Positions 53,366 to 64,000 of a DNA stretch of 64,000 bases are shown in pieces; the stretch's first letter is position 1; every line of letters begins with the position of its first letter. Origin of the DNA: Thiorhodovibrio frisius. GTDB lineage: Bacteria > Pseudomonadota > Gammaproteobacteria > Chromatiales > Chromatiaceae. The notes under the pieces are model-generated. The model searched no databases, was not told the origin of the DNA, and was given only the letters and a program-made list of their open reading frames with translations. The stretch spans positions 992,001-1,056,000 of the forward strand of contig NZ_CP121471.1 in NCBI RefSeq assembly GCF_033954835.1. The letters are read 5' to 3'. Made by a program: the position numbers and the translations under genes.

Positions 53366-54505
53366 TTAGATGGTGCGACTTTGCTCCGCAGCCAGTGCCA
53401 CCGCCTGCTCCAGATCCTCCATGGGCGTGTGGAAATGCGGTGAGAAGCGGATGCCGCCTCCGCGTGCGGCGCAGAGCAGGTTTTGGCTCATCAGCGCGCG
53501 CCATAGGGCTTGGTGATCCTCGATTCCGGGAATTTGGAAGGTCAGGATGCCGGCGCGTTGTTCGGGTGCGCGCGGGGAGAGCAGCTCAAAGCCTTGGGCG
53601 TCGATCAGCTCGATCAGGTGGTCGATGCGCTCTTTGATGGCCTGTTCGATCTGGTCCAGGCCGGTTTCTTCGAGCAGCGACAGGCTGGCCTCGAAGGCAT
53701 GGATGCCGAGCATGTTGGGGCTCCCGCATTCAAAGCGGCGTGCGCTGCTGGCCGCTTGCCAGTCGGTGCGGTCGAAGTCACCCATCTGCTCGACCATGTG
53801 CCAGCCGAATTGATGCAGCTTGAGCTTCGGGCGCAGCTCCGGGCGGCAGTAAAAGAGCGCGATGCCCTCGGGGCCGAGCATCCATTTATGTGCATCGGCA
53901 ACGACAAAATCGGCCGGCATGCGGCTGAGGTTGAAGGGGAGGGCGCCCAGACCCTGAATGGCGTCGATGCAGAGCAGGATGCCGCGTTCGCGGCAGGCAT
54001 TGCCGAGGCGTTCCAGGTTGAGCCGTCGGCCACGGGCATATTGCACCCAACTCACTGCCAGCAGCCGGGTGCGTGGGTTACAGAGTGCGAGCAGATCATC
54101 CTCGGGTGTCTGGGATTCGGAGAGCTTTAGTGGGCGCCACTCCACGTCCTGGTTGGCCAGCGACTGCCACACGATGCGGTTTGATGGGAATTCCTCAGCG
54201 ATGCCGACAATATTGTCGCCCGGTTGCCAGTCCAGTCCATGGGCGATCACCGACAGGGCCTCGGAGGTGCTCTTGGCCAGGGCGATGTCATCGGCTGAAG
54301 CTGCGCCGATCAGCCGCGCCAGGCGCTCGCGCAGGCGCTGTTCGGTGGCCTGCCAGTGCGGATAGCGGTTAGAGCCCAGGGTGGTATTTTCCTCGGCGAA
54401 GCGGCGCACGGCATCACTGGTGCGCTTGGGCCAGGGGCCGACAGCGGCATGGTTAAGGTGCAGCAGGTCGGGGGAGAGGTTGAATTCTGCCAGTGATGCG
54501 TTCAT
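53366..54505 (-). CDS. class V aminotransferase-fold PLP protein (cysteine desulfurase-like)
   Basis: 379 residues. The PLP lysine is in VVADAHKWMLGPEG; other marks are HLNHAAVGP at the start, KSTSEAL and ILLCIDAIQGLGA (aspartate and glutamine that hold PLP). The mobile cysteine loop of IscS/SufS is not visible, so desulfurase activity is doubtful. Its substrate may be an amino acid such as kynurenine or isopenicillin-like epimerase substrates. It is next to, and overlaps no, neighbouring genes. Confidence 0.85.
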   Translation of the reverse strand: MNASLAEFNLSPDLLHLNHAAVGPWPKRTSDAVRRFAEENTTLGSNRYPHWQATEQRLRERLARLIGAASADDIALAKSTSEALSVIAHGLDWQPGDNIVGIAEEFPSNRIVWQSLANQDVEWRPLKLSESQTPEDDLLALCNPRTRLLAVSWVQYARGRRLNLERLGNACRERGILLCIDAIQGLGALPFNLSRMPADFVVADAHKWMLGPEGIALFYCRPELRPKLKLHQFGWHMVEQMGDFDRTDWQAASSARRFECGSPNMLGIHAFEASLSLLEETGLDQIEQAIKERIDHLIELIDAQGFELLSPRAPEQRAGILTFQIPGIEDHQALWRALMSQNLLCAARGGGIRFSPHFHTPMEDLEQAVALAAEQSRTI

Positions 54506-54694
54506 TGCGAGCCTTCTGGTATGCGATAGTGATGCCGAGCATGCGCATGGCAGTGACAGCTTCTATAAATGGAAATTTAGGATAGCATACCGGCCCTAAG
54601 CCCTTTGATCTGAGCCCTTTCAATAGTGCGATAAACTCTGGGGCTTTCTCTATGACTGCGTGATTCTCAACAGCCCCACTGAAGAGCCGCCGAT

Positions 54695-57600
54695 ATGAGC
54701 GAAATTGCATCGACTCGACTGATCCAGGTTCAGAGATTGAGGTTTTTCTGCGGGTTGATTCTGCTTTGGTTGTTACTCTGGTTCAGCCCGATTGCGCCTG
54801 CCAGCACGCAGGTGGAAACGGCTGCCATCCCTCCAGCACTGACGCCCTGGGCGCCCTGGGTGCTGCGCGATGCCGACTGGCGGGACTGCCCGCTAGCGCC
54901 GGCATCCGTTACCAAATCGGCAGTTGGGAGTCAGGGGCGCCTCTGCCGCTGGCCTGGTATTTTGCAGCTGGAGGCGGACGCCGATGCTGGGCGTTTCACC
55001 CAGGATTGGCGGCTGTATGCTCCCGGCTGGGTGCCGCTGCCGGGCGATGAGCAAGCCTGGCCGCAGCAAGTGCGGGTAAATGGTGAAGCGCAACCGGTGT
55101 TGGCGCGCGAGGGGCGACCGGCGGTGTTTTTGCCGGCCGGGGATTATGCAATCAGCGGCACTTTCGTCTGGTCGCGACTGCCCGATGGGCTGCAATTGCC
55201 GGAGGTTCGCGCCCAGGTGCGGTTGCGCTCGGGTGCTGTAGACACATTCGCACCGCGCATTGATGCCGCCGGGCGGTTGTGGCTGGGTGCGGCGCCTAAT
55301 GCCGCAACCGATGTGGCGCCTGGGTCGGAGGACGGCAACGCCACGCGCGCCGATACCCTGGCGCTGGATGTTACTCGCCTGTTGGCCGATGGGGTGCCGG
55401 TGCGCCTCACCACCCGGCTGGATTTGGAAGTGTCGGGCCAACCGCGCGAGCTTCGATTGGACGGCGCGGTGCTGCCGGGCGCGCTGGCTTTGCGGATCGA
55501 CAGCCCGCTGCCGGCGCATCTTGATCAACAGGGACGGCTGCAATTACAGCTGCGACCGGGACGCTGGGTGGTGCAGGTCGAGGCACGCTATCCGGGCCAA
55601 CCAACGCGTTTTGAGCTGGCCGATGCCGAGGTGCCCTGGCCGACGCGTGAGGTCTGGGCTTTTCGTGCCGATCCGGCGCTGCGTCAGGTCGAGGTTAGCG
55701 GGGTTCCGGCGGTGGACGCGCGCCAGACCCGCCTGCCCGCCGACTGGCAGAGCCTGCCAGCTTATGGTCTGGAGGCAGGAGATGCTCTGGTCCTGCAACC
55801 CTTGCCGGCGGCGCGTGCTGGCCGTGAGCGGCTGCGCCTGAACCGTGATCTGTGGCTGGATTTCAGCGGTCGCGGTTACAGTGTGCGCGACAGTATTGAG
55901 GGCGAACTGGCCGGGCTGAGCCGTCTGGATGCCCGGGCGCCGCTGCGTCTGGGACAGGTGCGCGTGGATGGCATGCCGCGCCTGATCACGCGGCTCCCGG
56001 GGAGGGAGGAGGTTGCGGAGCCTGGGAGCGCTGAAGGAGCCGCCGATGCCTCCCCCGAAACGGACACTGAAATGCCCACCAAAGCAGTCCCCGCAGCAAT
56101 CAGCCAAGCGCCCACTGGCGTCGAAGTACGCGGCGAGCGCCTGTCTCTGGAAGCCGACGGTCGGCTGGAGGATTTGCGCGGTCAGCTGCCCGCATCCGGC
56201 TGGACAGTGCCTTTTGAAGGGATTGAAACCAGCCTTTACCTGCCGCCGGGTTGGGATCTGCTTGCGGCCAGCGGCGTGGATAATCTGCCCCAGACCTGGA
56301 TGGCGCGCTGGTCGCTGTTAGATCTTTTTTTGGTGTTGATTGCGGCTCTGGCTTGCGGGCGCCTGTGGGGCTGGCGCTGGGGTCTGCTGGCGCTGGTCAC
56401 TCTCACGCTGATCTGGCAAGAAGCGGATGCGCCGCGCGCTGTCTGGCTGAATCTGCTCGCCGCCGCCGCGCTGCTGCGGGTGTTGCCGGCGGAGGCGGGA
56501 CAGCAGGCACTGCGGCGAGCACGCGGTCTGGTGCAATGGTATTTCCGCGCCACCCTGCTGGTGCTGGTGCTGATTGCGCTTCCTTTTTTGTTGCAGCAAA
56601 TGCGTGACGGGCTTTATCCGCAACTCAGCATCGACGAGGGAAGCCGGATGGGCGCGGGCGTGGCGAATCAAATATTGGCAGAAAGGGCATTGCAATCAGC
56701 GCCAGCGCCCGCTGAATTGGCACGCTCCGCGCCTGCTGAGGGGGATTACCTGAGCCGCTCTGCCGGCTCGGCCTCAATGGCCAAATCAGTCGCGCCGGCA
56801 TGGAATGCGCCACCACCAGGGGCGGTCTTGCAAACCGGAGCGGGCGTGCCGGATTGGACCTGGAACGCTTTCCGACTGGAATGGAACGGCCCGGTGGAGT
56901 CCGATCATCAAATCTCTCTGTGGCTGCGCCCGCCGCTGGCCGGCCTGCTGCTGGCCTGTGTGCAGTTGTTGTTGGTTCCTTTGTTGGCGCTGCGCCTGGC
57001 TGGCGGCTGGCCGGCGGTGGTGGATGCCGGACGGACCTTGCGCCAAGGGCTGCATGCTGGCCAGTCCGCGCCGGGACAAACCGCGCGCCAGCGCAGTTCC
57101 GCGTTGAGCATTTTGGGCTTGGCTGTCATGCTCGGCGTCGGCGCCTGGCTGGTGCCGCCAATGGCGCAGGCGTCCAGGACGCCAGATCCCGCGCACGTCG
57201 CATCGCCCCCGCAACCCCAGGTGCAAGCTGCCCCCGCGCCTGTGGCACCCGTGCCGCCGGCGGAGGCGGCGCAAGCTGCCGCCATCTTTCCGCCAGAAAG
57301 CTTGCTGGATGCACTGCGCGAGCATCTGCTCTCCGCGCCCGAGTGCTGGCCGGAGTGCATCACCCTGACGCGCCTGCATGTGCAGCTCAGCGACGGCCAA
57401 CTGCGCTTGCGCCTGGATGTCGCGGCTGGCGCCGCCGGCGCGCTGCCTCTGCCGGGTGGTGAGTCCACCTGGTCGCCGCAACAGCTGTTGCTCGATGGGG
57501 TCGAGCTGCCGCAGGCACGTCGCACCAAAGATGGCCATCTGCTGGTCCCTGTGCCCGAGGGCGATCATCAAGTGGAACTCTCAGGGCCGCTGCCAGCCAC

Positions 57601-59314
57601 CGGGCGCATCGAGCTGCCCTTGCCGCTGGCCCCGCGCCTGGTGACCACCGAGCTTGACTCGGCCTGGCGACTCGAGGGCCGGCGCGCCAATGGTCAGGTT
57701 GGCTCGCAACTGCGGCTGGTGTCTTTGGCGGACTCGGACCCTGGTGGGGATGCCGGTGGGGATGCCGGGGCCGACTCTGATACAAGTTCTGGGGCGAACT
57801 CTGGCTTGGCCGCCGATGCTCTATCGGCATCGGCGGCCAGCGCACCAGCGCTGACCCCGCTGCTGCGCCTGGAACGCAGCCTGCATCTTGGGCTCACCTG
57901 GGACTTGCGCTCGCGCGTGCAACGATTGTCGCCTGCGGAGACCTCGGTCAGCCTGTGGCTGCCCTTGTTGCCGGGGGAGGCCGTGACCAGCGCCGAGGCG
58001 CAAGTAGTGGACGACCGGCTGCTGCTGTCTTTGGCGCCCGGTCAGCGCCAGCTTGAATGGTCGTCCCGACTGGCGCCATCGGAGCACTTGGCATTTCAGG
58101 CCAGCGACGACCCACGGCTGGTGGAGACCTGGTGTCTGGGTGTTAGCCCCTTCTGGCATCTGGAGACTGCTGGCATCGCCTCAGTCGGCGGTTGCGATCT
58201 TGGCGGCACGGCGGCGGACGCGGCAGCGCCTGCCCGGCAGTGGCGGCCCTGGCCGGGAGAGACACTGGAGCTGAATCTGACGCGACCGCAGGCGGTGCCC
58301 GGTCCGACCCTGACGTTGGATCAAACGCGCTATGCGCTCGAACCAGGACGGCGCGCGAGCGAGGCACGTTTGACTCTGAAAGTTCGCAGTAGCCAGGGCG
58401 GGCAGCACCCAATTGTTCTGCCAGCGGGCGCCGAGCGGCTCGAAGTGCGCATTGACGGGCAGGCGCGCGGGCTGGTCCTCAAAGATCAAAAAGTCGACCT
58501 GCCGCTGGTGCCCGGCGTGCAGCAGGTAGAGCTTCGGTGGCACCAGCCCGCCGGGCTCGGGCTGGGCTATCGTCCTGAGCCTGTGGATCTGGGCGTTGGC
58601 AGTGTCAATGCCATCACCGAGGTCTCGCTGGGTGCCGACCGTTGGGTACTCTGGACCCAGGGCGCCGGTGTCGGCCCGGCGGTGCTTTTCTGGAGTGTGC
58701 TCTTGGTGCTGGCGTTGCTCGCCTGGGGGCTGGCACGCTGGCGGTTGACACCTCTGGGTTGGCACGACTGGCTGCTGCTTGGCATCGGGCTCAGTCAAGC
58801 GGACATCTGGGTTAGTCTGCTGGTGGCCGGCTGGCTGCTCGCGCTCGGCTGGCGGCGGCGACTGGAATCTCAGCGCCTTGAGATCATGTCAGCCTGGCGC
58901 TTCGATCTCGCGCAGATCGTCCTGGTGGGCTGGACGCTGCTGGCCTTGCTAGGCTTGCTGGCCGCCATCCAGCAAGGGCTGCTCGGACCACCGCGCATGC
59001 AGATTGCTGGCAATGGCTCCAGCGCCGGGCTGCTGCGTTGGTACCTGGACCGCAGCGGGCCAGAGCTGGGCGAGGTGCTGGTCGTCTCGGTACCCATGCT
59101 GGCCTACCGGCTGCTGATGCTGGCCTGGGCGCTGTGGCTCGCGTTGCGACTGCTCGCCTGGCTGCGCTGGGGCTGGCAGGCGTTCTCCCAGCCGCTGTTG
59201 TGGCGCGCGCTGCCACCGATGATGTCGCGGGGTAAGACGCGTGCGCCGACTAAGCCGGATCATCATGGCGGCAATCAGGCTGGGGCCGATGAGTCCCTGA
59301 GCCTGGATATTTGA
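54695..59314 (+). CDS. large multi-domain membrane protein of unknown function (1539 aa)
   Basis: 1539 residues, not recognised. Layout: a signal/anchor at about 14-37; a periplasmic beta-rich region (40-530); membrane segments at about 540-635; a loop; further segments near 745-770 and 802-826; a second periplasmic region (830-1325); and a final group of membrane segments (1327-1492). Each periplasmic region opens with a similar module: CRWPGILQL...[16 protein letters not shown]...LPAGDY in the first, CWPECITLT...[17 protein letters not shown]...VPEGDH in the second, so it may have arisen by duplication. Ala/Pro-rich and Gly/Asp-rich linkers join the parts. It is a single gene with no obvious partner. 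A role in envelope assembly or transport is only a guess. Confidence 0.7.
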
Positions 59315-59387
59315 ACCCGATTGTGCGCTTGGATTGGCGTGGTTGCGCAGCGCGAAGGCGAGAGTGCTCGATAATCAAAAGAGGCTG

Positions 59388-60086
59388 ATGATGACTGATA
59401 CTTCCCGTCCTGCCGTGGTGCTGTTAAGCGGCGGGCTGGACTCGGCCACGGTGCTGGCCATTGCAAAGGATCAGGGGTTTGCCCCCCACGCGCTGTCCTT
59501 TCGCTACGGGCAACGGCATTTGATTGAACTCCAGGCGGCTGCCCGGGTGGCCGAGGCGCTTGGGGCGGCAGAGCACCGCGTTGTGGCGGTCGACCTGGCC
59601 GGTTTTGGCGGCTCGGCGCTCACGGCGAAGATGGACGTGCCCAAGCATCGCGATGTCGGCGAGATTGGCTTAGGCATTCCAACCACCTATGTGCCGGCGC
59701 GCAATACCGTGTTTCTGTCCCTGGCGCTGGCCTGGGCCGAGGTGCTGGGCGCGACCGACATTTTCATTGGTGTCAATGCGCTGGACTATTCGGGCTACCC
59801 CGACTGCCGGCCCGAGTACATAGTCGCGTTTGAGCGCATGGCCAACCTGGCCACGCGCGCCGGGGTCGAGGGACGCGAGCGCCTGCGGCTGCATACCCCG
59901 CTGATCGAAATGACCAAGGCCCAGATCATCCGTTGCGGTTTGGCGCTTGGCGTGGACTACGGGCTCACCCTAAGTTGTTACGACCCAAGCCCAGAAGGCA
60001 AGTCCTGCGGCGGCTGCGATGCCTGCCTGCTCAGGGCCAAGGGATTTGCCGAGGCGGGAGTGGACGATCCAGTCGATGGGAATTGA
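59388..60086 (+). CDS. queC: 7-cyano-7-deazaguanine synthase
   Basis: About 232 residues. The PP-loop ATP site is [13 protein letters not shown] and the C-terminal zinc site has four cysteines ([19 protein letters not shown]). It turns 7-carboxy-7-deazaguanine into preQ0 with ATP and ammonia. ATG 59388 follows AAGAGG; ATG 59391 is equally possible. The queD-like and queE genes follow on the same strand. Confidence 0.96.
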
Positions 60087-60243
60087 TTCGTCCAGTTTGC
60101 GATTGGTATAGAGGCGAATTCATTCTCTAACCACCAGCCGACCCTTTGCGCGGTCGCAAGGCGAAACCGGCTAAGCTGTGCGATCCTGCGCGCGACGCCT
60201 GCCGTTTTGTTGCGGGTACTGATTGTCTGCCGGGTCTGCCACC

Positions 60244-61356
60244 ATGGATGCATTGCTTTTCACCGCCGCCGAGACCTTCCACGCCGCGCGTCGGCTTGCC
60301 AACCTGCCGGCGGGGCATCGCGCGAGGGCTGTGCATGGACATGGTTTTGGCGTCAAGATCCATGCGGATCTGCGCGAGCGCGGTGATCTTGGGGCTGGAA
60401 CCGAAACGCGCGCGCTCGGCGATGTGCTACGGCAGGCGAGTGCGGCGCTGGATTATCAGGATCTGAACGCTTTCATCGCGGAGCCCGGCGATCTGGGCAT
60501 CGCCACCTGGTTGGGCGAGCGCCTGGTCGAGTCCCTGCATCCGGGCCGGCTCGCCGCTCTGGGATTGAACAGCACCGCCTGGCAGGGCGTGACTACAGTC
60601 GCTGAGGCGCCAACGCGCGGCTGGCGGCGTTATCGCTTCGAGGCCGCGCATCGATTACCCAGTGTGCCCGAGGGGCATCCCTGCGGGCGCATGCACGGGC
60701 ATGGTTTCGAGGTAACGCTGCATGCTGATCTTGCTCCGGACGATCCAACAGGCTTGTCCGGCTATGACAAGTTGGATGCCGCTTGGGCACCGCTTGCGCG
60801 CCAATTGCATCATAGCTGCCTGAACCTCCTGTCGGGGCTTGAGAATCCGACCAGCGAGCTGCTTTGCTTATGGCTGTGGCAGCGCCTTGAGCCGGAGCTG
60901 CCCGGGCTGCGTCAGGTGATGGTGCGCGAGACGCGCACGGCGGGTTGCTGTTACGACGGACAGCGGTTTCGCATCTGGAAGGATCTGTTCTTTGAGAGCG
61001 CGCTGCGCTTTGGCGAGCTGCCTGAGGCTGATCCCTGGCATGGTCTGCATGGTCACAGTTATGCGCTGCGTTTGATGCTCGGTGCGCCTCTGGACGAGGT
61101 GCTGGGCTGGACGGTGGATTTCGGCGATGTGAAAGTGCTCTTTAAACCGGTGTATGCGCGGCTCGATCACTTTGATTTGAGCACACTGCCTGGGCTGCAA
61201 CGCCCAGGGGTGGCGGAGCTGCTGCACTGGATTGCCGGGCAGGTTGCCGATGTCTTGCCGCAGATCGATGGGATTGCGCTAAACCCAACCCCGGGGTGCG
61301 GGGCATCGCTGAGTTTGGCTGGTGCTGATCATGGTCTGACGTTGCCGGCGTTATGA
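60244..61356 (+). CDS. queD: triple-domain 6-carboxytetrahydropterin synthase (QueD) fusion
   Basis: 370 residues with three QueD-like domains in line. Domain 1 (about 1-125) has zinc histidines H13, H31, H33 but alanine in place of the catalytic cysteine. Domain 2 (about 127-240) is closest to E. coli QueD: H136, C147, H151, H153 and E229, but LHH instead of the catalytic LDH. Domain 3 (about 247-350) keeps LDH (307-309), H269 and H271, but lacks the first histidine and the cysteine. The catalytic set is thus complete only if domains cooperate, or domain 2 works alone. ATG 60244 is the start. It makes 6-carboxytetrahydropterin, the QueE substrate. Confidence 0.85.
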   Translation: MDALLFTAAETFHAARRLANLPAGHRARAVHGHGFGVKIHADLRERGDLGAGTETRALGDVLRQASAALDYQDLNAFIAEPGDLGIATWLGERLVESLHPGRLAALGLNSTAWQGVTTVAEAPTRGWRRYRFEAAHRLPSVPEGHPCGRMHGHGFEVTLHADLAPDDPTGLSGYDKLDAAWAPLARQLHHSCLNLLSGLENPTSELLCLWLWQRLEPELPGLRQVMVRETRTAGCCYDGQRFRIWKDLFFESALRFGELPEADPWHGLHGHSYALRLMLGAPLDEVLGWTVDFGDVKVLFKPVYARLDHFDLSTLPGLQRPGVAELLHWIAGQVADVLPQIDGIALNPTPGCGASLSLAGADHGLTLPAL

Positions 61357-61397
61357 GTCACGGCGGTGCCCAATTAGCGCGGCAAGGGGTGTGATCT

Positions 61398-62048
61398 GTG
61401 GCCTATCAGGTCCACGAGATTTTCCATAGCCTGCAAGGTGAAGGCGCGCGCAGCGGGCGCTCGGCGCTTTTCTGTCGCTTTGCCGGCTGTAATCTTTGGT
61501 CCGGGCGCGAGCAGGATCGTGCGGCAGCCATCTGTCGCTTCTGCGATACCGAGTTTCGTGGCACCCATGGCAGCGGGGGCGGTGTGTTTGCCTCGGCCGC
61601 CGCGCTGGCCGATCATCTGGGCGACCTTTGGCACTCGCAGACGAGCGGGGCTGAACGGCCCTACATTGTCTGCACCGGCGGGGAGCCGCTGTTGCAGCTC
61701 GATCAGCCGCTGATCGATGTCCTGCATGCCCGTGGTGGTGAAATCGCGGTTGAGACCAATGGAACCATCGAGCCGCCAGTGGGAATCGACTGGCTGTGTG
61801 TCAGCCCGAAAGCCGGGGCAACTCTGGTGGCAACCCGAGGCGATGAACTAAAGCTGGTGTTTCCGCAACCTGGACTGACGCCCGAGGCAGTTGAGGCTCT
61901 CGAGCAGCTCGAGTTCCGCGAGTTTTTTCTCCAACCCTGCGATGGACCCGAACGCGCGGCCAATATCGACGCAGCGCTGAGTTACTGCAAGGCCCACCCG
62001 CGCTGGCGGCTGAGCCTACAGTTGCACAAGCTGCTAGGGATCCGGTGA
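61398..62048 (+). CDS. queE: 7-carboxy-7-deazaguanine synthase
   Basis: 216 residues, a small radical-SAM enzyme. The cluster cysteines are C31, C46 and C49 in a CX14CX2C spacing instead of the usual CX3CX2C, a known variant of QueE. VHEIFHSLQGEGARSGR at the start and CTGGEPLLQ (glycine-rich SAM motif) are clear. It contracts the pterin ring to 7-carboxy-7-deazaguanine. The GTG start at 61398 has AAGGGG upstream. It closes the queC-queD-queE operon. Confidence 0.93.
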   Translation: MAYQVHEIFHSLQGEGARSGRSALFCRFAGCNLWSGREQDRAAAICRFCDTEFRGTHGSGGGVFASAAALADHLGDLWHSQTSGAERPYIVCTGGEPLLQLDQPLIDVLHARGGEIAVETNGTIEPPVGIDWLCVSPKAGATLVATRGDELKLVFPQPGLTPEAVEALEQLEFREFFLQPCDGPERAANIDAALSYCKAHPRWRLSLQLHKLLGIR

Positions 62049-62122
62049 GGCTGATGGTGCCAGCCATCCCGGACGACGAGTCCCCGGTGATTCAGCCCCA
62101 GTGATTCAGGCGCCCAGCCGGC

Positions 62123-62875
62123 TCAGTGCTGACGCTCGGAGGGGGAGGAGAGCAAGGACTGCGCCACCGAGCGGCTGCGCTGGGCTTCTTCCTCCTTGCC
62201 GTTGGCGGCCTGGGCCTCGGCCAGCACCTTCCATGCCTCAGGGTCGGTGGGGCTCAAGCGAATGGCATGCTCAAGGATGGTTTCGGCATCCTGGTGTTTG
62301 CCGGTCTGGGCCAGTAGGCGGCCGAGATTGTTGTAAGCGCCGGCGTATTGTGGGTCGAGCTTGATCGCGGTCAGAAAGGCTGCGGTGGCGGCTTCGGTTT
62401 GCTCCTGCATCATGAGCATGGCGCCGAGATTGTTGCAGGCGGCGGCATTGGAGGGGTCGAGTTCCAAACTGCGGTCAAAGGCGCTAGCGGCTTCTTCGAT
62501 GCGCTCGAGTTGGGTCAGTGCGACGCCGAGGTTGTAATGATATTCCGATGCATCGGGTTCAGAGGCCAGGGCGCGGCGGATGAATGTCAGCGCTCCTTCC
62601 GGGTCGCCGTCGTTGATTTTCAGCACCCCGAGTTGGTTGAGCGTGATGGGCTCGTAGGGGTCTTGGTTTAGCACCTCGCGGTAGAGGGTCTCGGCCTCAT
62701 CGATCTGGCCTGCTTCGTGCAGGCGGTCGGCCTGGCTGATCATTTCTGCCAGTTCGGTCGGGATGTGGCGCTCCTTCGCGACCCGCGCGGCGTCTTCGCT
62801 GAGCCCGGTTTCGTCGGCTTGCGCGTCGGTCTGGGTCTCGGGCAAGGCGTCTTTGGGCATGAAAATCTCAGCCAT
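62123..62875 (-). CDS. tetratricopeptide repeat protein
   Basis: 250 residues. From about residue 40, five to six TPR units follow (for example EAETLYREVLNQDPYEP, YHYNLGVALTQLERIEEA, ACNNLGAMLMMQEQTEA). No signal peptide is visible, so it is probably a cytoplasmic scaffold. The partner is unknown. It is convergent with queE. Confidence 0.85.
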   Translation of the reverse strand: MAEIFMPKDALPETQTDAQADETGLSEDAARVAKERHIPTELAEMISQADRLHEAGQIDEAETLYREVLNQDPYEPITLNQLGVLKINDGDPEGALTFIRRALASEPDASEYHYNLGVALTQLERIEEAASAFDRSLELDPSNAAACNNLGAMLMMQEQTEAATAAFLTAIKLDPQYAGAYNNLGRLLAQTGKHQDAETILEHAIRLSPTDPEAWKVLAEAQAANGKEEEAQRSRSVAQSLLSSPSERQH

Positions 62876-63197
62876 GGTCGTGGGTCCTCAAGAGCTTCAG
62901 TGTTCTGGCGAGCGCGCGATCAGTGCTGGACGCGGCAAGTTGGTGGGGGCTTGGCATGGCTGCGAGACCCTCGGGGTTGGGGCGCATGATCGGCGCGATT
63001 TCTATCAGTCTGTGCGAATTCGTCCAGTATTTCCAGCATTAACGCCCGCAAAGCGCGAAAACTTGACCGTCGTGGCGCTCTTGGGGCTCGAAAGCGGGGT
63101 TTGACCAATTCTGTGGTCTGCTGGGTGTCCCTGCATCTGTGGTATAGTCGCGGGCTGATTTTTTGCTAACCGGCGCAAGAGTCGGGGAGAGGTCTAG
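62876..63197. other. intergenic region with likely yajC promoter
   Basis: No gene is seen. An extended -10 box TGGTATAGT lies at 63140-63148, with no good -35. GGGGAGAGG (63184-63192) is the yajC ribosome site. Confidence 0.4.
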
Positions 63198-63530
63198 ATG
63201 AACTTTTTCATTTCCGATGCCATGGCCCAGGCTGAAGGGGCGGCGGGTCCGGCTGATTCCTTTCTTGGTCTACTCTTTCCTATCGGCCTGATCATTATTC
63301 TCTACTTTTTAATGATTCGCCCGCAGATCAAGCGCCAAAAGGAGCACAAGGCGCTGGTGGATGGGCTGAGCAAGGGGGATGAGGTGATTACCATGGGTGG
63401 AGTGGCCGGTCGTATTGTCGATATCGGTGACAATTTCGCCCAGTTGGAGGTCGCCGATGGGGTGACCATTAAAATCCGCCGCGCGTCGGTGGAGGCCGTG
63501 TTGCCCAAGGGTTCACTAAAGGAACTCTAG
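63198..63530 (+). CDS. yajC: Sec translocon accessory subunit YajC
   Basis: 110 residues, normal length. One membrane segment (about 26-42, GLLFPIGLIIILYFLMI) is followed by RPQIKRQKEHKALVDGLSKGDEVIT-type sequence, the YajC core. It binds SecDF-YidC. Usually tgt precedes yajC; here the preQ0 genes queC, queD and queE are close by instead. secD follows on the same strand. Confidence 0.96.
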   Translation: MNFFISDAMAQAEGAAGPADSFLGLLFPIGLIIILYFLMIRPQIKRQKEHKALVDGLSKGDEVITMGGVAGRIVDIGDNFAQLEVADGVTIKIRRASVEAVLPKGSLKEL

Positions 63531-63692
63531 CATCATCTGCGCGCTGGCGTTTGGCGGTGGCGTGCTGATTTGGTGCATGAACGAACGAAAGGCGAGTGGG
63601 TCGTTGGGGTCGGTCCGGAGACGGACTGACTCTGCATCGCCCCTCAGCCGCCTTCTCATTCTACTACTATCCCCAATTGCAACAATTCTGCA

Positions 63693-64000
63693 ATGAATCA
63701 TTATCCGCTGTGGAAAAATCTGCTGATTCTGGGTGTCGTCCTGGTCGGGCTGGTGCTCGCGCTGCCCAATTTGTTCTCTCAGGACCCCTCGATCGAAATT
63801 ACCGCCGAGCGTGGTGTCGAACTCAATGATGGCAGCATCGCCGAGATTCGCGCAGTGTTCGAGAATGCCGACGTCCCGGTAAAGGGCATCGAGCCGCTCG
63901 ACGGCGACCGGCTGCTTGCGCGCTTTCGCACTTCCGGCGAGCAGTTGCGCGCGCTTGAGGTGATGGAGACCACTCTGGCCGACCGTTACCGTAGCGCACT
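63693..64000 (+). CDS. secD: protein translocase subunit SecD (3' partial)
   Basis: Only the first 102 codons are in the window. NHYPLWKNLLILGVVLVGL starts the protein with its first membrane segment, followed by ALPNLFSQDPSIEI, as in gammaproteobacterial SecD. The rest lies beyond the right edge. The position after yajC is the standard one. It helps to pull exported proteins through SecYEG with the proton gradient. Confidence 0.93.
   Translation, partial: MNHYPLWKNLLILGVVLVGLVLALPNLFSQDPSIEITAERGVELNDGSIAEIRAVFENADVPVKGIEPLDGDRLLARFRTSGEQLRALEVMETTLADRYRSA

Follow-up and report, generated by a model that had tools for sequence, protein, structure and literature searches.

QueD (6-carboxytetrahydropterin synthase) is canonically a homo-oligomer of a single domain of about 120 amino acids that carries the whole catalytic set. 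We analysed a stretch of 64,000 nucleotides from Thiorhodovibrio frisius (the window), in which one open reading frame departs from this architecture by encoding three such domains in one chain. This raises the question of how the catalytic residues are distributed over the three domains and whether they could still make up an active site. The original prediction, made from the DNA letters, was that three QueD domains are fused, that the catalytic set is spread over them, and that the chain is a pseudo-oligomer with one mixed active site. Our analysis largely upholds this view and points to a site composed of domains 2 and 3.

Results

A three-domain QueD between queC and queE

The features of the locus, all on the + strand, are as follows.

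59334..60086, +, queC (7-cyano-7-deazaguanine synthase), upstream neighbour; TIGR00364, 199.5 bits against a cut-off of 150.3 (scanned from 59391)
60244..61356, +, three-domain QueD (6-carboxytetrahydropterin synthase); 370 aa plus stop, three PF01242 domains
60247..60603, +, domain 1 (residues 2-120); predicted T-fold of the PTPS family, degenerate, with R16, A27, H31, H33, D70-Y71 and S110
60610..60963, +, domain 2 (residues 123-240); putative zinc/Cys/Glu half of the active site, with the CxxxHGH motif of PTPS-I/QueD
60649..60702, +, codons of H136, C147, H151 and H153 (putative zinc ligands plus the putative catalytic cysteine, whose codon is 60682-60684); invariant in 148/148
60808..60813, +, codons of H189-H190, the degenerate dyad of domain 2; Asp-His in 41/148, with 17 or more changes on the tree of 103 representatives
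60928..60930, +, codon of E229, the putative pterin-anchoring Glu; invariant in 148/148
60964..61320, +, domain 3 (residues 241-359); would supply the Asp-His dyad, its own zinc/Cys site being incomplete
61165..61170, +, codons of D308-H309, the sole conserved Asp-His dyad; D308 in 147 plus one X, H309 in 148/148
61398..62048, +, queE (Cx14CxxC type), downstream neighbour; TIGR04508, 333.9 bits against a cut-off of 240

Translation of 60244-61356 revealed no internal stop, and the product matched the PTPS family (PF01242/COG0720) by profile. In a six-frame search PF01242 was found three times end to end in this frame, at 75, 48.5 and 28.3 bits; all three matches exceed the cut-off of 22.4 and are therefore far beyond chance. 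Scanned as a protein, the product reached 144.9 bits with the same profile (E 1.4e-42) over three stretches, the best of which was residues 128-239. The fusion of three domains was thereby confirmed. TIGR03367, the QueD equivalog of NCBIfam, gave 117.5 bits against a cut-off of 89.25, a score for the whole protein summed over the three stretches. A Pfam scan up to E 1 returned PF01242 alone and no QueF family profile. Chance repeats or a frame artefact are ruled out by three over-threshold domains in one open frame, conserved over 148 proteins.

The gene lies between queC and queE on the same strand, with gaps of about 160 bases to queC and about 40 to queE. Elsewhere in the genome (5,417,120 bases in one contig, 98% complete) we found tgt and, as a separate gene, queF, so the queuosine pathway is expected. 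At E 0.001, the 5.4-Mb genome contained no PF01242 match outside the three-domain frame; two weak matches, with E values of 0.01 and 0.07, fell in open frames of 637 and 1223 amino acids. The three-domain protein is the sole QueD candidate found in the genome. A separate ordinary queD doing the work, which the original prediction had set against itself, is ruled out at that threshold.

In the surrounding DNA (54000-64000 of the window), no RNA element or riboswitch of a described family was detected at the Rfam gathering thresholds. Upstream of queC, 54695-59314 on the + strand encodes a protein of 1539 amino acids with no Pfam match at E 0.01.

The catalytic set is divided between domains 2 and 3

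In PTPS and QueD enzymes, histidines bind zinc, a cysteine acts as the nucleophile together with an Asp-His pair, and a glutamate anchors the pterin. Burgisser et al. (1995) reportedly speak in their title of an 'intersubunit catalytic triad motif' in PTPS. We read the residues of the three domains from an alignment to E. coli QueD plus the three-domain family; E. coli numbering was counted on the aligned QueD chain.

Domain 1 holds two zinc histidines (H31 and H33) and has Arg16 where E. coli has His16, a histidine at residue 13 being out of register; A27 replaces the Cys, Y71 the dyad His and S110 the Glu. The absence of the cysteine noted in the original prediction thus stands, and its claim that this domain keeps the zinc histidines holds for two of them, not three. 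The readings of the other two domains proved accurate. Domain 2, described as having the zinc ligands, cysteine and glutamate but LHH for LDH, keeps H136, C147, H151, H153 and E229, with H189-H190 in place of Asp-His. Domain 3, described as having LDH but lacking one zinc histidine and the cysteine, keeps D308-H309, H269 and H271; L254 stands where the first zinc His would be, W265 replaces the Cys and P348 the Glu. H136, H151 and H153 of domain 2 are accordingly read as putative zinc ligands and E229 as a putative pterin anchor.

Domain 2 is also the repeat with the highest identity to E. coli QueD (51%, against 39 and 27% for the other two), and it matched the QueD chain 4ntm_A at E 2.7e-32. 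The CxxxHGH signature occurs in domain 2 only, as C147-GRM-H151-G-H153. One paper gives CxxxHGH as the PTPS-I signature (PMC5041015), and another describes three zinc histidines in PTPS enzymes and active sites between adjacent monomers (PMC7546909).

Very probably, the protein is a working QueD that forms a covalent pseudo-trimer, in which a single composite active site per chain would carry out catalysis. In the homo-oligomer, each site arises where the Asp-His of one subunit meets the zinc, Cys and Glu of a neighbour. The three PTPS/T-fold domains, fused head to tail, would fold as the ring that single-domain QueD builds from three chains. Domain 2 would give Cys147 as the nucleophile, Glu229 as the pterin anchor and the histidines that hold zinc. 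Domain 3 would give Asp308-His309 and so complete the triad, in an internal version of the PTPS intersubunit triad, with domain 1 as a scaffold that closes the ring. Two chains probably stack head to head, which would give two sites instead of six. Since the fusion fixes which domain meets which, one domain 2/domain 3 site would suffice, and the other two may change.

Predicted structure of the chain

Structure prediction had been proposed as a check of the fused chain. The best AlphaFold2 model, made with 62 sequences, had a mean pLDDT of 93.5 and a pTM of 0.91 and comprised three bb-aa-bb T-folds joined by short linkers; that each repeat is a T-fold is predicted from secondary structure and superposition. 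The model of domain 1 (2-120) superposed on P. horikoshii PTPS 2dj6_B (Z 9.8, rmsd 2.8, 113 aligned), that of domain 2 (123-240) on E. coli QueD 4ntn_B (Z 11.5, rmsd 1.3, 117 aligned) and that of domain 3 (241-359) on E. coli QueD 4ntk_D (Z 11.7, rmsd 1.2, 119 aligned). The original prediction had weighed another fold for domains 1 and 3; both are modelled as PTPS/QueD domains.

Two-domain stretches of the model aligned with tandem T-folds: residues 2-240 with urate oxidase 5ayj_D (Z 11.4, 4.7 A, 219 aligned) and residues 120-360 with the uricase 8ofk_AAA (Z 10.7, 4.8 A, 210 aligned), alignments that at 4.7-4.8 A show the arrangement roughly only. Uricase and QueF rows with a model range of 1 to 366-369 were not counted toward ring closure. 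Urate oxidase and GTP cyclohydrolase IB resemble the three-domain QueD in having fused T-folds, and chains of both matched stretches of the model that span two domains; however, they have two domains, 5-12% identity and other chemistry.

The composite site could instead lie between chains, with domain 2 of one meeting domain 3 of another in a domain-swapped assembly. The conservation pattern described below fits D308-H309 acting in cis as well as in trans. Nevertheless, we regard swapping as improbable: a single chain is predicted with the pTM given above, residues 2-240 and 120-360 each align to tandem T-folds, and the interdomain linkers of the AlphaFold2 model are only a few residues long. 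A site between domains 2 and 3 of the same chain remains our preferred reading.

Conservation of the split site

We compared 148 three-domain sequences, namely the query, L005-L033, L064-L071, L083, L114-L123, L125-L132, L144-L223 and L231-L241. Excluded were L001-L004 and L124 (all of them the window itself), L057 (a repeat of L022) and L082 (a broken copy, in genome G121). The set lacks 21 of the 59 full-length proteins from the taxonomic family and includes 80 of 300 named relatives, and a genome may occur in it both with and without a name. To find the 80 named loci we used two short peptide patterns; C147 and H151 are part of one of them. The other 68 sequences (query included), which came from genome searches given no residue pattern, agree with the same split.

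H136, C147, H151, H153 and E229 of domain 2 were present in all 148 sequences. So was H309 of domain 3, and D308 was found in 147/147, the residue being unreadable in one sequence (L206). The domain 2 dyad was Asp-His in 41 sequences and otherwise HH (48), HL (19), HY (9), HQ (6), HN (6), HG (4) or others. Domain 1 had Asp-His once in 148 and mostly Asp-Tyr (132). For comparison, all seven residues stood in one domain in 27/27 single-domain QueDs, taken from the loci of the best-scoring single-domain matches and hence near relatives of QueD. The dyad and residue counts leave domain 3 as the only possible general Asp-His donor and domain 2 as the only possible donor of the rest.

Because the sequences are related, the counts are not independent, and we answered this by counting changes on a tree. 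The tree held 103 representatives at 90% identity and was built by a quick search without bootstrap from an alignment with the two dyad columns blanked. On it, the domain 2 dyad changed state at least 17 times, and the domain 3 dyad was intact in 102/102 readable rows. Together with the 148 homologues, these repeated changes support the mixed active site that had been proposed.

Alternatively, domain 2 might work as any ordinary QueD does, relying on its own relaxed His-His dyad and using domains 1 and 3 only as scaffold. It is the repeat most similar to the E. coli enzyme, and positions 189-190 read HH in 48 sequences and Asp-His in 41. Yet the same two positions also hold HL, HY, HQ, HN, HG and others, the domain 3 Asp-His is invariant, and every one of the 27 single-domain QueDs examined has Asp-His. 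We give this explanation very little credence relative to a site completed by domain 3.

Some residues of the incomplete sites are conserved as well. In domain 1, both histidines of HGH are kept in 147 of the 148 sequences, Tyr71 in 143 and Ser110 in 143; in domain 3, the histidines of HGH are kept in 143 and 148.

Distribution and gene neighbourhood of the three-domain form

A survey of relatives for one-, two- and three-domain forms, also suggested as a check, revealed the three-domain form to be widespread. A protein search of the window's taxonomic family, covering 146 genomes, gave a match in 62. The full three-domain protein was present in 59 of them, the window's genome included; the other 3 had partial matches to other PTPS proteins. 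Fifty-eight of the carriers gave one match, and G136 gave two pieces of one frame. The form was also detected in 19 of 369 genomes of the class, with two matches that start late in domain 1, and in 14 of 398 genomes of the phylum, 11 of which belong to other classes. The class and phylum searches used an alignment (A1) of 30 members, the phylum search being asked to E 1e-20; the family, class and phylum samples overlap, with the window's genome in all three. Among the class and phylum matches listed, the class listing ending within the weak matches, there was no two-domain intermediate of the three-domain family, and the other strong matches were to domain 2 only. In G418 of the class sample (L132), domain 1 is very short. 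The genera of most of the named carriers are ones that we take to belong to Chromatiaceae; Competibacteraceae, Thiothrix, Magnetococcales and others are also represented.

The neighbourhood seen in the window recurs. Using tblastn within each stretch, we found queC and/or queE at 77 of the 80 named loci (both at 60, queE only at 11, queC only at 6, neither at 3), some contigs ending early and queC not being adjacent in L220. This context and the confident three-T-fold model lend further support to the pseudo-oligomer. Another pterin reaction, or a structural or regulatory job in the queuosine cluster with no 6-carboxytetrahydropterin synthesis, would suit a protein in which two of three sites are degenerate, and PTPS-family paralogues catalyse different reactions according to one paper (PMC5041015), but we think it highly unlikely given the PTPS-I motif in domain 2, the QueD equivalog cut-off passed, the queC and/or queE neighbours and the lack of any other QueD found in the genome.

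The copy in the window has diverged further than most, and its domains 1-3 rank 12th, 15th and 11th from the bottom among 146; its median identity to other members is 0.41, 0.60 and 0.55, compared with 0.59, 0.71 and 0.67. It still keeps the whole catalytic set. The three-domain QueDs of its genus-mates are 84% (G076, L005) and 55% (G028, L019) identical to it, a contrast that may reflect either replacement by transfer or fast change. Genome G121 has a second three-domain copy (L082) in two different frames, beside an unbroken one.

Origin of the fusion

We built a tree of 105 separate domains, drawn from 30 of 94 representatives, 12 single-domain QueDs and 3 remote PTPS, over 119 columns and with a bootstrap that had not settled. 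Domain 1 and domain 3 sequences each formed one group (100/100), and domain 2 sequences stood together save one unresolved row. The single-domain QueDs fell outside the three groups, their own grouping being unsupported (57/53). The separate groups indicate that the three domains were already distinct in a common ancestor. The simplest reading of this tree would be a single fusion history. The fusion appears to have happened once, long ago; today it is carried by many Gammaproteobacteria as well as by some members of other classes of the phylum. Among the 94 representatives, mean pairwise identity was lowest in domain 1 (0.52, against 0.66 in domain 2 and 0.63 in domain 3), which fits a weaker constraint there.

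Other PTPS proteins in the relatives

The relatives' genomes also contain two-domain PTPS proteins of about 300 amino acids (L085-L113, e.g., L089:1390-2298). They were picked by motifs with C157, H162 and H164 and by a GESW-like N-domain motif, which 27 of 29 scanned loci passed. In all 27 the N-domain carries Asp60-His61, and the C-domain carries the Cys/HGH motif together with His148 and Glu266; of these, only D60, H61, H148 and E266 are free observations. L089, the sole two-domain protein scanned, scored below the QueD equivalog cut-off. In 27 of 30 genomes picked for few, weak matches, all listed PF01242 matches lay in one two-domain frame.

Proteins of about 425-440 amino acids with a PTPS domain at the C-terminus only were seen at L052 and L053 (G095, G121), with frames of like length in L074 and L075. 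The two that were read have CxxxHGG, not HGH, and the first ~260 residues give no Pfam match over the cut-off. A small single-domain PTPS relative occurs in addition to the three-domain QueD in the genomes of the genus-mate G028 (L076) and of G136 (L077). Both were rejected as QueD by motif, having HGAT for HGH and no preceding cysteine. The other genus-mate, G076, likewise has an extra PTPS gene (L259).

Discussion

The three-domain QueD shares with single-domain QueD/PTPS-I (E. coli 4ntk; P. aeruginosa 2oba) the fold of each domain, CxxxHGH, the zinc histidines, the Cys, the Asp-His and the Glu. The single-domain enzymes examined (27/27) have all seven residues in one short chain, whereas the three-domain QueD splits the set over domains 2 and 3.

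A division of this kind has a parallel in the same pathway. In bimodular QueF, two tandem T-folds bring the QueF motif and Cys/Glu together in an interdomain site, as one paper describes (PMC5372742). The QueFs of V. cholerae and E. coli resemble the three-domain QueD in having tandem T-folds in one chain and catalytic parts divided between domains (PMC5372742). However, QueF catalyses another reaction, belongs to another family and has two domains, and it is the QueF motif and Cys/Glu that it divides. The two-domain PTPS proteins described above also separate Asp-His from zinc/Cys/Glu, roles that we assign by analogy, but in the opposite order (Asp-His in the N-domain) and with CxxxxHGH spacing.

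The conserved residues of the pseudo-sites in domains 1 and 3 are unexplained by a pure scaffold and may be structural or ligand-binding. It is conceivable, though doubtful, that the degenerate sites have been rebuilt as conserved non-catalytic sites, for example for triphosphate, substrate or product. Such sites might consist of HGH, Asp70-Tyr71, Ser110 and mostly Arg16 in domain 1, and of HGH and, in the family, mostly Arg265 in domain 3, an assignment that we hold just as tentatively. If this were true, each chain would combine a single catalytic site with two sites for binding or regulation, all made from the same fold, and a symmetric enzyme would have become an asymmetric, allosteric one.

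Such proteins are present in public genomes, and the NCBI QueD model recognises the one in the window, so the gene itself is already known. None of the titles and abstracts that our searches of open-access literature brought up describes a fused or multidomain QueD; as subscription papers lie outside that scope, this is weak evidence of novelty. Within it, the triple fusion and its split site are apparently undescribed.

The family amounts to a natural experiment, in which evolution put the two halves of the PTPS triad on separate domains and left the copies no longer used free to vary. Even in the absence of a structure, the split points towards the intersubunit triad, which can be tested by single point mutants that are not repeated in every subunit. 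With the three-domain QueD, the T-fold enzymes of queuosine synthesis include an example with three modules next to the bimodular QueF.
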